Shown here piece by piece: positions 5,818 through 14,819 of a DNA stretch of 21,212 bases (within the stretch, counting starts at the first letter, position 1; each line of letters begins with the position of its first letter). The notes under the pieces were generated by a model. It was not told the origin of the DNA and searched no databases. It saw only the letters and a program-made list of their open reading frames with translations. The stretch comes from a virus. The stretch covers positions 1 through 21,212 of IMG/VR virus record IMGVR_UViG_3300019924_000031; one strand, written 5' to 3'. A program made the position numbers and the translations under genes.

Positions 5818-7038
5818 CTACGTCCACTCCTCCATACCCGCTTGGTTGTCGTCGGCGTCACGCACCACACTCGGATCGTCGGGCGTGAGTCCGCAGCGGA
5901 CGCGCGCGACGTCCGCCCATTGTGCTTGTTTCTCTATGCCGATGAACTCGCGGTGTTTGTTCTTTGCCGCTTTGGACGTCGTCCCACTGCCGGCGAACGG
6001 GTCAAGTACGATTTGATCTTTCGCGGTGGCGAGTGTTACTAGCCACTCCATGAGGTCGGTGGGTTTGACTGTTGGGTGCGCGTTCTCTATCTTCCCGTCT
6101 AAGGTGCGTTCGGCGCGGGATGCTTTGGACGTGTAGAAGTACCGGGAGACACCGCCCTTGTCCCCGAGTCCGCCAGTATTGGGGCCATGAGAAGCCTTCC
6201 ACTCGTGTCTATCGTCTTTGTGACCGTTTTTAGCCGCGGCCACGCCGCCCGTGCTTACGGTGTCTTCGGTGGCGTCGTCTAAGTTGGCGGCGGCGGTCTC
6301 GTCAAACACGACGTTTGACGGATACCGGCCCTCAACAGCACCATGACCACCACTTGCTTGAGAATACACGTCGTTATCGCCAGGTGGTTCGTTCTCGCGT
6401 TCTTCTGAACCCACTCGACACTCCCCAATATTCAACGCGCCCGTCCCCCACTCCCGAACGTTCCCCGCCACCGTATCCTCCCCCAGTGGCTTCCGGGCGA
6501 CGACGACGAACTCGGTGGCGGGCTTGAGGGTGGTTTTCCATCCGTCCCATTGTTTGGCGGCGTCCGTCGCGGGTTCGGTGTATTCGTATGTTGTCGTATC
6601 CTCGTGGTCGTTCCGGTACTCCCCGCCCCGTATGTCGTCCGCTTCGCGTTCGGCTATCACTTCACGCTCGGCGTTGGCCTGTTTATCAATAGCCTTCGAG
6701 ACGTCCAACGCCTTCGGAAACCCACTCCCGTAATGCCACGTAATCGTATCCCGAACCTCAAACCCCGCATCCTCCACACCACTAAACAACCTGTGGTGCG
6801 TGCGATTGCCGGAGAACGCGAGTAGGTGTCCGCCCGGTCGAAGGACGCGCTTCGCTTTCCGCGCCCATTCCTCGCACCACTCTTGGTACTCCTTTGGCTC
6901 AAAGTCGTCCCAATCCCGCCCCATGAACGCAAGTCCATACGGCGGATCGGTGACTATGGCGTGAACGCTGTTCTCGATTAATTCGTCAAGTTTTTCTAAT
7001 GCGTCGCCGGTATGAATCACGTTCGTTTCTACATTCAT
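5818..7038 (-). CDS. DNA N4-cytosine/N6-adenine methyltransferase, beta class (406 aa)
   Basis: This enzyme transfers a methyl group from S-adenosylmethionine to an exocyclic amine of a DNA base. Motif IV DPPY (31-34) comes first and motif I, LDPFAGSGTT (345-354), lies near the C-terminus, the circularly permuted beta-class order. HPTVKP (321-326) precedes motif I as usual. The central 110-300 region would hold the target-recognition part. The ATG at 7038 lies two bases after the upstream stop. The gene is in a row with a GIY-YIG-like nuclease and two more methyltransferase-like genes. Haloviruses use such enzymes to evade host restriction; the target site cannot be read from the sequence. 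Confidence 0.92.
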   Translation of the reverse strand: MNVETNVIHTGDALEKLDELIENSVHAIVTDPPYGLAFMGRDWDDFEPKEYQEWCEEWARKAKRVLRPGGHLLAFSGNRTHHRLFSGVEDAGFEVRDTITWHYGSGFPKALDVSKAIDKQANAEREVIAEREADDIRGGEYRNDHEDTTTYEYTEPATDAAKQWDGWKTTLKPATEFVVVARKPLGEDTVAGNVREWGTGALNIGECRVGSEERENEPPGDNDVYSQASGGHGAVEGRYPSNVVFDETAAANLDDATEDTVSTGGVAAAKNGHKDDRHEWKASHGPNTGGLGDKGGVSRYFYTSKASRAERTLDGKIENAHPTVKPTDLMEWLVTLATAKDQIVLDPFAGSGTTSKAAKNKHREFIGIEKQAQWADVARVRCGLTPDDPSVVRDADDNQAGMEEWT

Positions 7039-10419: not shown

Positions 10420-10566
10420 CTATACCCTACGGTACGCCCCCGTCCGCGGCTCCATCACACGCCCCGCCTGCGCCAACGCCTCCAACTCCGACTCCACCAC
10501 CGACTCACTCACACCCGTAATCGACGCCACCTCCGCCGGCGTCCGCGCCTCATCACACGCCTCCAA
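10420..10566 (-). CDS. Out-of-frame winged helix, probable displaced C-terminus of MCM
   Basis: The frame +1 to mcm encodes RILEACDEARTPAEVASITG then VSESVVESELEALAQAGRVM, ending TGAYRRV and a TAG stop. This is a convincing winged helix (helix, TPAEVASITG turn, recognition helix, wing) of the kind found at the C-terminus of archaeal MCM. It begins where the MCM frame ends (stop at 10553) and overlaps it by 14 bases. No ATG or GTG starts it; a TTG at 10566 is the earliest candidate, with GGAGG three bases before it. Possibilities are a frameshift mutation or sequence error, programmed frameshifting, or a coupled separate peptide. The first seems most likely. Confidence 0.55.
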   Translation of the reverse strand: MEACDEARTPAEVASITGVSESVVESELEALAQAGRVMEPRTGAYRRV

Positions 10567-12214
10567 GATCCTCCGCGTACCACTCCTCCAACTCCTCGAA
10601 CTGCTCGTACCTGAGGATGGGGAACACGTTTTCTTTCGCGTGCTTAATCCACGCCCGCCCCACCTCCACCGGCACCGGCCGCTCCAACTGATCGAACTCC
10701 TCGCGCTCCCCGTACTGGGCTTCCTGCGCTTCCGTGTACGCCCGCCCGTACGTTTCCGCGACTTTCGAGTCCTGTTCCTTGTCCGCTTCGTCAAACATCG
10801 TCACAATGCCGTCAAAGCGCGAGAGTAGCGTCTCATCAATCCCCATCTGTTGACTCACACTCTGATTCGGGTCAAACCGTCCCTCAATTGGATTGCCGAG
10901 TGCCATGAGTCCCGTCTTGCTTTCGTACGTCGCGCTCTTTCCAGCCTTCTCCACGTCGACGACTTGCTCGCCCTCCAACGCGTCGTTCATATCCGTCAGT
11001 TCCTCCGGGCCTTTGTCAATCTCGTCAAGAATCAAGTGCCCGCCGTTCGCACGCACCAATAAGCCGGGCGTGATCGTCCACTGGCCCTCCCCAAAGTCGT
11101 CCTTGGTCGCGGCCGCCGTCAACCCCACACCACTCGATAACGCGGTCGTGCTCTTACTAATGCAGTTCGGGCTAAACGCCTGAATGTCCTGCTTGAACGT
11201 CGACTTCCCCATCCCGAAGTCCGTAATCATGAGGAAATGCAAGTCCCCACGGTACGTCGGCCCGCTCGGAATATTGATGGGTGGCGCACCAAACAGGTAC
11301 GCCACCGCGAACTCCATAGCCGCATCCCACGACGGCGTAGTGTGCAAGTTCGGCGCAAGTGACTCCGCGATTAAATCCACGGCGTCGTCCCGATCCGCAA
11401 GCGCCTCGAACTCCTCGCGGTGCGCGGCCACGTCCACGGCGTCGTTATCCTTCTCGTACTCGATACTGTTCACCTCCAGCACGTTCGTGAACAAGAGTTC
11501 GTTATCCCCGTCCTTCTGCACGCGACGCACAAACCCGTTCACGGTCACTTTCTCGCCCGCCCGCCCGAGAATACCGTGGTCGCCACCGTAATCAATCAGG
11601 TCGTTCATGACGTACCCGACGAGCTTCCCGCTCTCACTGTCGCCCGCGTTCGGCGGGCTTTGGATGCGGACTTTCGTGTAGTCACTCCACTCGCCCTGGT
11701 CTTCTACCACGTCCATCGTCGCGCGTTTCTCGCACGACCCGCATTGGTCGGGCTGTCGAAGTTCGCCTTTCGCCGGATCTTGCGGATACGGATTGTACCC
11801 GCCACAACTCCGACACCGGAACACGACTTCCTCGGCAACGTCGTCGGGAGTGGTGACACGCTCCAAGGTGCCAGTAACACCGACGAATTTGCCGGCGTGG
11901 TCTTTCCGTATCTCGCCCGGCGTGTACGTGTACGTCTCTTCAACGTTGTGGACGCGTACACTGCATTTGCTCAGGTCAACGTCTACGGGCAGGTCTATCT
12001 TCCCGAGTGCGGCCTCTGCACCCTTCAAGACGTCGCGTGGCGATTCCATAAAGTCGTCCGCAAGCGCCGGGTCGTAACTAACCACGTCGGCGTAGTCAAT
12101 CCACAACGACCGTTTGTCGTGTGGGTAGCCTTGCGCCAGCTCGCCGAGTTGGTCGCGTTCGTACTGCTCTATCACGTCCATGAACGGGTCAACGTAGTGT
12201 TGTGAGTCTACCAT
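10553..12214 (-). CDS. mcm: MCM replicative helicase (553 aa)
   Basis: This is the hexameric 3'-5' helicase that unwinds the replication fork. Residues about 1-250 are the N-terminal OB-fold domain with a zinc site at Cys134, Cys137, Cys158 and Cys161. The AAA+ core has a diverged Walker A, TDFGMGKST (331-339, normally GDPGxGKS), Walker B LILDEID (394-400), sensor 1 Asn441 in ALGNP, and an arginine finger LLSRFD (Arg466). The frame stops after EEWYAEDLGGV, before the usual C-terminal winged helix, which is found intact in the +1 frame. Upstream is a duplicated TATA-rich 12-mer. A virus-encoded MCM implies partial independence from the host helicase. Confidence 0.92.
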   Translation of the reverse strand: MVDSQHYVDPFMDVIEQYERDQLGELAQGYPHDKRSLWIDYADVVSYDPALADDFMESPRDVLKGAEAALGKIDLPVDVDLSKCSVRVHNVEETYTYTPGEIRKDHAGKFVGVTGTLERVTTPDDVAEEVVFRCRSCGGYNPYPQDPAKGELRQPDQCGSCEKRATMDVVEDQGEWSDYTKVRIQSPPNAGDSESGKLVGYVMNDLIDYGGDHGILGRAGEKVTVNGFVRRVQKDGDNELLFTNVLEVNSIEYEKDNDAVDVAAHREEFEALADRDDAVDLIAESLAPNLHTTPSWDAAMEFAVAYLFGAPPINIPSGPTYRGDLHFLMITDFGMGKSTFKQDIQAFSPNCISKSTTALSSGVGLTAAATKDDFGEGQWTITPGLLVRANGGHLILDEIDKGPEELTDMNDALEGEQVVDVEKAGKSATYESKTGLMALGNPIEGRFDPNQSVSQQMGIDETLLSRFDGIVTMFDEADKEQDSKVAETYGRAYTEAQEAQYGEREEFDQLERPVPVEVGRAWIKHAKENVFPILRYEQFEELEEWYAEDLGGV

Positions 12215-12273: not shown

Positions 12274-12783
12274 CTATCGTGGTACGTGGTGCCCGGCACC
12301 CTGCTGGAACCGCGACGGGTCAAGCTCCGGGTTCCGACTCTTCAAATCCTCAATCACGTCCTCCTCGTCGCACTCCCCGAGTTTCGCGGCTTTCTGCACC
12401 ATCGCGTGCCCTTGAAAGACGTTCATGCCGTCCTCGTGCATTTGGTCCTCTATCGACTGAAGGTAGCCGTCGTACTTGCCCTCAACATCGTCTATCTTCT
12501 CTAACTCCGCCTCGGCGCGTTCAATCTTCACGTCTAACTGCGCGATTTCGTCGTCAAGATTGTTGCGTTCGCTTATCTTGTCGCGTTTCTTGTCCCGGAG
12601 TTCTTGCAAGTGGTCGCGGACTTTCTCGCGTTGACTCACCTTCTCACCGTGCGCCACCCGCGCAAGCTCCTCGCGGACGAGTCGAGTTAGGCCGCCGTGC
12701 TCTAACTTTTCCTTGGCGAGTTCTTTCGTCCGCTTCGGGACTTTCACGTTCACCTGGGATTGTTCGGCGTCGTCGTCACTCAT
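12274..12783 (-). CDS. RHH-like protein with long coiled coil (169 aa)
   Basis: Residues 10-45 (VNVKVPKRTKELAKEKLEHG then GLTRLVREELARVAHGE) match a ribbon-helix-helix: strand, helix, turn, helix. Residues about 47-117 are highly charged with a heptad pattern (EKVRDHLQELRDKKRDKISE, then IAQLDVKIERAEAELEKIDD), a long coiled coil. A small C-terminal helical region contains CDEEDVIEDLKSR. Proteins of this layout are common on haloarchaeal plasmids and viruses and are presumed DNA-binding; partition or transcription roles are both possible. The start makes an 8-base ATGAGTGA overlap, and the stop is followed at once by the duplicated 12-mers before mcm. Confidence 0.78.
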   Translation of the reverse strand: MSDDDAEQSQVNVKVPKRTKELAKEKLEHGGLTRLVREELARVAHGEKVSQREKVRDHLQELRDKKRDKISERNNLDDEIAQLDVKIERAEAELEKIDDVEGKYDGYLQSIEDQMHEDGMNVFQGHAMVQKAAKLGECDEEDVIEDLKSRNPELDPSRFQQGAGHHVPR

Positions 12784-12988
12784 CGTTATGGGTTCTAATG
12801 TGTTCCTCGTTCACTTGCACGGCGTAATGCCGGTCGCAATGCGCGCAGTGATAGCGAACCCACGACTCATGATAGTCGTCCACTCGCCCGTCAAAATCTC
12901 GGAGTGTGTCTATCGTGGAAAACTCGCGGATTCTACTGACGGCACTTGCGCGCTCGCACGTTGGACAAACCGTGGTTAGTTCGCTCAT
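12776..12988 (-). CDS. Zinc-finger mini-protein (70 aa)
   Basis: Two CxxC pairs, Cys8/Cys11 (CPTC) and Cys48/Cys51 (CAHC), flank an acidic helical insert. Nearby histidines (His40, His47, His54) could add ligands. The C-terminal YAVQVNEEHIRTHNDE resembles the tail of C2H2-like domains. The ATG at 12988 overlaps the previous stop (ATGA), and the stop overlaps the RHH/coiled-coil gene by 8 bases. Function is unknown; it is one of three adjacent zinc proteins around the Mom-like gene. Confidence 0.72.
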   Translation of the reverse strand: MSELTTVCPTCERASAVSRIREFSTIDTLRDFDGRVDDYHESWVRYHCAHCDRHYAVQVNEEHIRTHNDE

Positions 12989-13131
12989 TTGTCTACCTCC
13001 GCGCGAAACTTCACTCGCTCATACTCCCCGTCGCACTCACTTGACAAGCACGGCGAACCATAGAGCGCGGACTGCCATATCTCGTAGCACTCACTACATA
13101 CCGCTAATTCAATGGTTAGTTCTTCACTCAT
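12985..13131 (-). CDS. Zinc mini-protein (48 aa)
   Basis: The ATG at 13131 makes an ATGAGTGA overlap with the end of the Mom-like gene, so the longer ORF from 13185 is rejected. The product has Cys12/Cys15 (CSEC) and Cys28/Cys33, with ligand spacing C-x2-C-x12-C-x4-C, and beta strands MSEELTIELAV and EYERVKFRAEV on either side. It is likely a single zinc finger with no other domain. Coupled on both sides. Confidence 0.7.
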   Translation of the reverse strand: MSEELTIELAVCSECYEIWQSALYGSPCLSSECDGEYERVKFRAEVDK

Positions 13132-13984
13132 TAGTATCCCCTCGCGTTTCAAGACTGAACGCGTCCGCGTCACCGTCCGGCGCAAAGTGACTCATACGCT
13201 GGCCGTGACTAAACGTCCCCAGCTCAACCTGCTCCTGTTGCGCCTGATAGTTCTCCTCGTGACTACTATTGTACGCAAGTTCTTCCGCGTCAAACGGTGG
13301 CTTCCCGCACTTCACCCATCCGTCCGCGGTGCGTTGCTTCCACGCTAAATCCTCGCGCTTCGGGTACTCCCCGCGCACTAGGTCCGGTTCTGCGTCGTTC
13401 ATTAGTTCCTCGCGCCGGTCGTCGTCGCAAAGGAAGTAAATGTATTTGAGTTGCATCCCGCGATAGTGCGACCACCCAAGGTCTTGCATCTCACTCCAAG
13501 AGGGGCGGCCACCGATGCGGTTCGTCTGGCGTGGGTGGACTTTCTCGCCGTCACTCGTCAAGTACGTGTCCGTCCATATCCGACCGGCGTACCAGAAGTT
13601 GCTCGCTTGGTAGATGGTGCCGGGTTTTCCGAGCATCCCGTCCGCCCACGTGAACAACACGTCAAAGTCGTAGTTTCGCTTAACGTGTTTGATGCACTTG
13701 CTAATGAAGTGCGATTCGGTATTCTTCGGGAGTTCTTCCACGGCGCACAGTCGACCTATTGCGCGGTAATCCTCAGTTCCGAGTGACGGAAACACGTTCT
13801 GAATCGTGTGTCGCGGGCGGACGCCCCACCCGAGACTCATGACGGCACCGAGTTCGCCGTCTATGTATCCGCCAAGGAAAAAGTCGTTTAACTGCGGGAG
13901 GTACTTCATGTAATGGTATTCAAGGATGAACCGCTCCGCGCGCGACTCGTCTATCTCCTTGATTTCCATGTGCTCGAAGCTCAT
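13124..13984 (-). CDS. Mom-like GNAT-fold DNA modification protein (286 aa)
   Basis: The first 150 residues match the Mom family pattern: FILEYHYMKYLP, a GGYIDGELGAVMSLGWG sheet, then IGRLCAVEELPKNTESHFIS, then LFTWADGMLGKPGTIYQASN followed by FWYAG. Next come VHPR and LKYIYFL. In phage Mu, Mom acts through a GNAT fold on adenine in DNA to give a methylcarbamoyl-type modification that blocks many restriction enzymes. By analogy this protein would modify viral DNA. The ATG at 13984 overlaps the stop of a 49-residue zinc protein (ATGA), so the upstream start at 14041 is unlikely. The C-terminal 50 residues are acidic and glutamine-rich. The exact chemistry cannot be read from sequence. Confidence 0.75.
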   Translation of the reverse strand: MSFEHMEIKEIDESRAERFILEYHYMKYLPQLNDFFLGGYIDGELGAVMSLGWGVRPRHTIQNVFPSLGTEDYRAIGRLCAVEELPKNTESHFISKCIKHVKRNYDFDVLFTWADGMLGKPGTIYQASNFWYAGRIWTDTYLTSDGEKVHPRQTNRIGGRPSWSEMQDLGWSHYRGMQLKYIYFLCDDDRREELMNDAEPDLVRGEYPKREDLAWKQRTADGWVKCGKPPFDAEELAYNSSHEENYQAQQEQVELGTFSHGQRMSHFAPDGDADAFSLETRGDTNE

Positions 13985-14130
13985 GCTTCCCACCCACTGG
14001 GTATCTTCCGAGCGACGCGAATCGCTCGCGTCTCCGGGCAATCACACCCGAGCGCGAGCGATCCGTCTTTGCGTCGCCGTAACTCTACGAGTCGGCCGCA
14101 GGTGTCGCATTCTACAGTTGGCTTGGTCAT
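13981..14130 (-). CDS. Zinc mini-protein upstream of the Mom-like gene (49 aa)
   Basis: The 49-residue product starts MTKPTVECDTCGRLVELRRR and has Cys8/Cys11 (CDTC) and Cys29/Cys31 (CDC). A basic stretch of arginines and lysines lies between the pairs and another in the tail (RAIRVARK). It could bind nucleic acid. The stop overlaps the Mom-like start (ATGA), so the two proteins are made together. In phage Mu, mom is co-expressed with com, which encodes a small zinc protein that activates mom translation; a comparable partner here is an attractive but untested idea. A hairpin (GGTTGT/ACAACC) lies immediately before its ATG. Confidence 0.72.
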   Translation of the reverse strand: MTKPTVECDTCGRLVELRRRKDGSLALGCDCPETRAIRVARKIPSGWEA

Positions 14131-14267
14131 GGTTGTGTGGCGCGAGACAACCGTGGGGCGAAAGACCTAACACCACCGGGCGCGAAGGACAATACACCTG
14201 CCAGGGTGTCGAGGGTCCTTCTCCCTCGGCGTTCTCGCGTTACTAGACACGTCTATCGCCCGGCCTA
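14131..14267. ncRNA. Structured gene-free gap, candidate RNA element
   Basis: This 137-base gap has no convincing gene. Stems on the plus strand: CCGGGCG (14176-14182) with CGCCCGG (14257-14263) closes the whole element; GAAGGAC (14184-14190) pairs with GTCCTTC (14215-14221); ACACC (14194-14198) pairs with GGTGT (14205-14209); CGAGGG (14210-14215) pairs with CCCTCG (14223-14228). The second and fourth stems interleave, so they form either a pseudoknot or two alternative folds. TAGAC/GTCTA is at 14244-14255 and GGTTGT/ACAACC at 14131-14152. It is not a tRNA: there is no T-loop or anticodon arm of standard form. The active strand is unknown; it may be part of the minus-strand message ahead of the zinc and Mom-like genes. 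Confidence 0.45.
14170..14186. repeat. 17-base repeat, copy A
   Basis: ACACCACCGGGCGCGAA at 14170-14186 is identical to 16225-16241. This copy contains the left strand of the closing stem of the structured element. The flanks are unrelated. Confidence 0.6.
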
Positions 14268-14819
14268 TTAAGCGTTGCCACCGTCCGCGACAACCGGCGG
14301 CAACACACCATACCCATCCCCATCCTCTTGGCGCGCCGTCAAATGCGCGAGCGGGTCACTCACCGACGCTTCCGTATGACAGTACACGTCAACCGTCCCA
14401 TCGTCGTTATCAAATAGGTAGCACTCGACTTGGTGGCCGTCGTCCATCGTCCAGAGTACGTGTGCGTCCGTGAGTGGGTCGCCACGGTCGCCCGGCCGTC
14501 GCTTCAAGGAGTTCAGCAAGTGTAGGCTTCCACCCGCGTCACGCAAGCTCTGTGCCGTCTCACGCACGCCACCTTGGACGGTCGCCACGTACTCCCCATC
14601 ATCACGCCCACCCTTATCCGAAACGAGTAGAACGACGTTGCCAAGGCGCGTGCGATCCAAGAGCGGGAAGACGCCGCGCTTCAACCGATGCAGCATCCGG
14701 TACTCACTCCACGATAGTTCGGTTTGATACGCGCGAGCGAGTCGGAGCGTGGCCGCTAACAGCACGACAAGCTCGGGGTTGTCTTGCAGTAACTCGACGG
14801 CACTCGGAAGTGCACTCAT
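14268..14819 (-). CDS. Hypothetical protein (183 aa)
   Basis: The ATG at 14819 follows a T-rich terminator-like stretch. The N-terminus (MSALPSAVELLQDNPELVVL followed by LAATLRLARAYQTELSWSEY) is helical and could include a winged-helix-like segment; the rest is beta-rich (GNVVLLVSDKGG, EYVATVQGG, HVLWTMDDGHQVECYLFDND). No catalytic motif or family is recognised. It is the last gene before the structured gap at 14131-14267. The upper-operon position next to the annealing protein suggests an early gene. Confidence 0.7.
   Translation of the reverse strand: MSALPSAVELLQDNPELVVLLAATLRLARAYQTELSWSEYRMLHRLKRGVFPLLDRTRLGNVVLLVSDKGGRDDGEYVATVQGGVRETAQSLRDAGGSLHLLNSLKRRPGDRGDPLTDAHVLWTMDDGHQVECYLFDNDDGTVDVYCHTEASVSDPLAHLTARQEDGDGYGVLPPVVADGGNA

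Follow-up and report, generated by a model that had tools for sequence, protein, structure and literature searches.

A Mom-Family Gene behind a Conserved Putative Zinc-Ribbon Gene in the Replication Operon of a Haloarchaeal Tailed Virus

Introduction

Mom belongs to the small number of enzymes that counter restriction by attaching a bulky group to adenine, the enzyme of phage Mu placing a carbamoylmethyl group on N6 of adenine. The stretch of DNA analyzed here, a single virus record of 21,212 bases that we refer to as the window, contains a candidate mom gene directly behind a gene for a small protein with four cysteines. This order is reminiscent of Mu, where Mom shields the phage DNA from restriction and the Com protein activates translation of mom and binds a hairpin that adjoins a structure taking in the mom start codon, the control site being located within com, upstream of mom (PMC6483171). 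The initial annotation had taken the two genes for an archaeal Mom/Com-like pair that hypermodifies viral DNA. The question raised by the locus is whether the small gene is indeed a com, by descent or by function, or whether a Mom-family gene has come to lie behind a small gene of another kind.

Results and Discussion

Source Virus and Gene Layout

We assign the window to a haloarchaeal tailed virus because stretches of its DNA match HRTV-4 and HRTV-29 and because its MCM-like replicative helicase (10553–12214; Pfam MCM, E = 3.9e-43) belongs to the haloviral family PHROG 10371 (E = 6.7e-130), which is common to the window, HATV-3, HSTV-1 and HFTV1. The likely genes of the window are carried by its minus strand, on which all window genes, hairpins and the non-coding gap described below are located. 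The helicase anchors a syntenic block. Directly before it, the ORF table lists a 169-aa coiled-coil protein (12274–12783) that we infer, from position and sequence style, to be the positional counterpart of HATV-3 gp66, HSTV-1 gene 44 and HFTV1 gp55. Two further entries of this table separate the coiled-coil gene from mom, a 70-aa ORF with a CxxC...CxxC pattern (12776–12988) and a 48-aa Cys-containing ORF that follows mom (12985–13131); searches of phage records found no relative of either. Located directly after mom, these two small Cys-rich ORFs (12776–13131) are perhaps cargo that arrived with Mom. A further DNA-modification gene of this virus encodes an N6/N4 DNA methyltransferase (5818–7038; Pfam N6_N4_Mtase, E = 6.3e-39). 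In our gene list, curated by hand from the ORF table, overlaps occur in 17 of 32 adjacent gene pairs and a CxxC motif in 8 of 14 small genes, so that neither a 4-nt overlap nor a small Cys-rich neighbor of mom is remarkable here.

The Protein Encoded at 13124–13984 Belongs to the Mom Family

The 286-aa protein encoded at 13124–13984 is a putative DNA adenine modification enzyme of the Mom family with a predicted GNAT fold. Its frame is open upstream as far as a TTG at 14041, which would allow 305 aa; the alignment with homologues begins near the ATG at 13984. The Mom/GNAT landmarks that had been read from the sequence, PKNTESHFIS, TWADG, GTIYQASNFWYAG and VHPR, are all present in the translation, and the protein matches the Pfam Mom profile PF25680 with E = 3.3e-39 (135 bits versus a cut-off of 27.1; profile positions 2–193 of 202) and PHROG 1384 with E = 1.1e-33. 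Its best sequence match in the PDB is Mu Mom (8bv8, E = 2.9e-10). The same entry headed the Foldseek matches of an AlphaFold model built on 32 sequences from the window and IMG/VR (pLDDT 83, pTM 0.77), with 8bv8 B and A at E = 1.4e-14 and 7e-14 and ordinary acetyltransferases trailing at 1e-5 and weaker. As the best solved match of the model is Mu Mom, the fold comparison proposed in the initial annotation came out in favor of a GNAT-like fold, and the objection that the protein might fold otherwise fails.

The title of entry 8bv8 describes an S124A mutant devoid of activity. The mutant Ala faces S91 of the window protein in the sequence alignment, and S91 aligns with Mu S114 in the 231-aa numbering, in which R78, D115, Y125, H24 and Y25 correspond to Mu R101, D139, Y149, H48 and Y49; the full Mom signature is intact. 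Judged by sequence and predicted fold, 13124–13984 thus encodes a true member of the Mom family. The likeness to Mu Mom (AAF01131; PDB 8bv8) comprises family, GNAT fold and the Ser/Arg/Asp/Tyr/His positions, and also the location of the gene after a small Cys-rich gene overlapping its start. The two differ in that identity is only ~25% (11-sequence alignment), in a C-terminal extension of ~60 residues, and in genomic context, as the window gene resides in a replication operon, that of Mu at the late end of the genome, and the window is devoid of a Com homologue.

A GNAT protein might of course serve another purpose, as a protein or small-molecule acyltransferase, or persist as an inactive remnant. 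The fold is that of the GNAT superfamily at large, the activity of the window protein is deduced from sequence and model, and gp19 of HRTV-4 illustrates that Mom-like GNATs of related viruses need not retain the YQASN signature. Yet sequence and structure match Mom specifically, ahead of all other GNATs, and no part of the signature has been lost in the window protein; we thus consider a role other than DNA modification very improbable.

The 49-aa Protein Is a Conserved Resident of the Pre-MCM Region

The gene preceding mom (13981–14130) encodes a 49-aa putative zinc-ribbon protein with a CxxC...CxC pattern (CDTC and CDC), identified as a conserved pre-MCM gene of related haloviruses by ORF, homologue, alignment and model analyses. 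C8, C11, C29 and C31 are invariant in all five sequences. As noted initially, its stop codon overlaps the mom start, the TGA sharing 4 nt with the mom ATG (ATGA). Full-length homologues of 51–64% identity were found in HATV-3 (gp63), HFTV1 (gp53), HSTV-1 (an unannotated ORF at 25615–25764) and IMG/VR contig L014, and no relatives were found among genome contigs. Foldseek analysis of the model (pLDDT 66) retrieved nothing significant, the best match being a zinc ribbon of an RNA polymerase III subunit (E = 0.47).

The homologues are always found upstream of the same MCM helicase, while the intervening genes vary. In HATV-3 and L014 these are HNH and other genes, in HSTV-1 the coiled-coil gene only, in HFTV1 a 56-aa ORF plus the coiled-coil gene, and in the window Mom and the two small Cys-rich ORFs, then the coiled-coil gene. 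HATV-3 gp63, HFTV1 gp53 and the HSTV-1 ORF, with identities of 51–63%, share full length and location with the window protein, but are followed by an HNH endonuclease gene, the 56-aa ORF and the coiled-coil gene, respectively, instead of mom, and the stop/start overlap occurs with these other next genes as well. Mom was searched for in the records of the four homologues (HATV-3, HSTV-1, HFTV1, L014) and found in none of them. Likewise, no counterpart of the 49-aa gene was found beside the Mom or Mom-like gene of HGTV-1 or HRTV-4, and a search of 32 records with the 49-aa model gave a good match in the window alone. The co-occurrence of the two genes in other haloviruses, which the Mom/Com interpretation had led one to expect, was thus not observed. 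Searches by Mom, 49-aa, MCM or GC-rich FTWADG patterns found no virus besides the window that holds both genes, so that the co-occurrence statistics rest on the four homologues. As the latter precede varied genes, share the MCM helicase and come without Mom, we conclude that the slot occupied by Mom is variable and the resident gene in front of it conserved.

Com itself has been sought in this protein. With a small four-Cys protein just upstream of mom and overlapping frames, position, size and Cys pattern do resemble Mu Com (PF10122), as they would if the protein were a diverged Com and the locus a true Mom/Com pair by descent. But the second CxxC is replaced by CxC, the overlap is 4 nt versus ~50 nt in Mu, and homologues exist in viruses without Mom. 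The Com profile PF10122 gave no match up to E = 10 with the 49-aa protein or its four homologues, the Mu Com control scoring 2.7e-9, and no match anywhere in the window record; the pairwise score of the 49-aa protein versus Mu Com was equalled by 202 of 1000 shuffles with the Cys residues fixed. Mom relatives outside Mu also do without Com, whose cut-off was passed in a single one of 31 Mom-bearing records, that of Mu itself. On these grounds, the 49-aa protein was rejected as a Com homologue; descent from Com is largely refuted already, and we regard it as exceedingly unlikely. Of the Mom/Com-like pair originally suggested, the Mom-family GNAT enzyme has stood up to the Pfam, PHROG and 8bv8 comparisons, whereas its partner, lacking any Com match and having four out of four homologues in Mom-less records, has not. 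The 49-aa protein is probably a general small protein of these viruses, associated with replication or expression, and not a dedicated Com.

Mom as Probable Cargo of the Replication Operon

The Mom-less homologues of the 49-aa gene, their varying next genes and the presence of Com in 1 of 31 Mom records lead us to view Mom as the cargo and the zinc gene as the resident. We therefore favor, as the probable explanation of the locus, that a Mom-family adenine modifier was acquired as cargo at a variable position within the replication operon, behind a resident gene that is not com. This explanation, developed on a single contig, draws on family membership, fold, the conserved key Ser, synteny and the 49-aa homologues without Mom. 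Enzymatic activity, modification of virion DNA and its target, the anti-restriction role and translational coupling would be its consequences. The acquired gene would have slotted between the resident 49-aa gene and the coiled-coil/MCM genes, to be expressed with the replication operon and translated by coupling to the 49-aa gene through the ATGA overlap. Its product would most likely attach a bulky group to adenines of the viral DNA, during or after replication and alongside the N6/N4 methyltransferase of the virus, and this modification would block host restriction enzymes.

Hairpins Preceding the mom Start

Simple cargo insertion leaves one feature unexplained that would fit dedicated control, namely a GC-rich hairpin of ~20 bp inside the 49-aa gene (14018–14065) that ends 33 nt before the mom ATG; in Mu, the Com site is located 13 nt before mom. 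The initial annotation does not mention this hairpin. Neither strand of the window contains a more stable 48-nt hairpin (−34.1 kcal/mol versus −28.6 kcal/mol for the next), and its value is attained in 1 of 24 shuffled whole windows. The 120-nt stretch including the hairpin, a region chosen post hoc in a single sequence, gave a z of −4.8, with none of 200 shuffles folding as well. Synonymous codon resampling yielded equally well folding recodings in 10 of 500 cases for the last 80 nt and in 53 of 500 for the whole 49-aa gene, so that the hairpin remains unusual, but less so. It is missing from the four Mom-less homologues (z −1.2 to +1.4). In addition, in silico folding predicted a small hairpin, GAAGC-ATGA-GCTTC (13976–13989), whose loop contains the mom start codon. 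The mom start region of Mu, subjected to the same stability test, gave a z of about −0.06; stability is therefore no hallmark of Com control.

These structures invite the idea of a Com analogue, in which an unrelated 49-aa zinc protein would bind the 14018–14065 hairpin, open the mom start and activate translation. Gene order, overlap and the small four-Cys protein are as in Mu com/mom, where Com binds a hairpin beside the mom-start structure (PMC6483171). The strongest local hairpin of the window is found where such a site would matter, upstream of a mom ATG itself enclosed in a hairpin loop, rarely matched by shuffles or by recodings of the last 80 nt and missing where Mom is missing. However, the protein is conserved in viruses without Mom, stable hairpins do arise in genomes as GC-rich as those of haloarchaea, 1 of the 24 shuffled windows equals the hairpin, and the Mu region itself does not stand out. 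Moreover, the hairpin is part of a translated frame and known from one sequence only. We judge control of this kind unlikely, but keep it as a live minority hypothesis because of the exceptional hairpin that the 49-aa gene carries shortly before the start of mom. If the hairpin controls Mom, the restraint of a toxic modification enzyme by gated translation would have evolved convergently. As an evolutionary scenario, which we deem quite unlikely, the resident zinc-ribbon protein might have been co-opted as a Com analogue: once Mom had been inserted downstream, the hairpin would have evolved in the 3' half of the zinc gene, and the protein, or its translation, would gate Mom synthesis through it. 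Were this true, com/mom control would have arisen in archaea by convergent evolution.

The Structured Gap Upstream of the 49-aa Gene

The initial annotation had further considered a structured gap just upstream as a possible control element of the pair. The gap is real (14131–14267; z −2.6, 3 of 200 shuffles), but it is located upstream of the 49-aa gene and not between this gene and mom, and constitutes a putative leader of the former. Mom-less HATV-3 (z −3.9) and HSTV-1 (z −1.9) have gaps at the same place, HFTV1 has none there. As the HATV-3 gap is the stronger one and yet comes without Mom, we assign the gap to the 49-aa gene and rejected it as a mom-specific element. It gave no match in Rfam and no DNA relative in phages; a TTAATA at 14266–14271 could be an archaeal TATA box, and the gap has the appearance of a leader or an origin element belonging to the pre-MCM operon.

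A hairpin-rich leader upstream of the 49-aa gene is common to HSTV-1 and L014 (L010:4840–5003 and L014:5225–5393; identity in ~69% of aligned columns), although these haloviruses differ in GC content, and represents a candidate conserved RNA or origin element; beyond those two, a search of viral contigs gave only a low-GC (~32%) bacterial hairpin. In L014 (5355–6008), the first ~11 codons of an HNH-type ORF behind this HSTV-1-like leader are almost the same as those that open the 49-aa gene of HATV-3, and a full 49-aa copy follows at 5992. The arrangement suggests that a homing endonuclease gene has inserted itself into the 49-aa gene.

Relatives and Origin of the Window Mom

The nearest relatives of the window Mom are phage proteins of non-halophilic origin, with 50% identity in one AT-rich phage. 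In our tree, it clusters with 34 bacterial/marine phage Moms, apart from the HGTV-1 Mom, although long branches leave the deep part unsure. Mom in haloviruses is already known from HGTV-1, whose gene 215 (HGTV1_215) carries a Mom-like annotation in NC_021328. The two proteins have in common the family and a haloarchaeal tailed virus as carrier, but HGTV1_215 is 28% identical to the window Mom and belongs to a distant branch, and the gene upstream of it encodes a Cys-free 60-aa protein, with no homologue of the 49-aa protein. With the caution that long branches demand, the tree suggests separate origins, and the window would thus provide the second, phylogenetically separate Mom of a haloarchaeal tailed virus. 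With a second halovirus Mom at hand in which all signature residues are present, bulky adenine modification may serve against archaeal restriction as well.

Some related loci deserve mention. HRTV-4 gp19 (L012:456–998, minus strand), annotated as hypothetical, is a diverged Mom/GNAT-like protein that exceeds the Pfam cut-off with 32.6 bits and is devoid of the YQASN motif; it is flanked by a 132-aa gene and terminase genes, and the window has its N6/N4 methyltransferase at that place. On contig L110 (4297–4905, minus strand), a Mom-family protein that possibly belongs to a marine archaeal virus is encoded next to a family B DNA polymerase-like gene and in the vicinity of an MCM-like AAA protein. 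Finally, a 2Fe-2S ferredoxin gene is found upstream of mom in 23 of the 80 nearest IMG/VR Mom loci, or 7 of 32 without near-duplicates (L047, L052, L055, L056, L061, L063, L065, L066, L070, L072, L075–L078, L080, L081, L083, L094 and others), mostly abutting or overlapping the mom start, with the Pfam Fer2 assignment taken from one tested. A full-text literature search found no report of a ferredoxin–Mom association. The ferredoxin-linked Moms are confined to one part of the Mom tree, and the ferredoxin may donate electrons for Mom chemistry.
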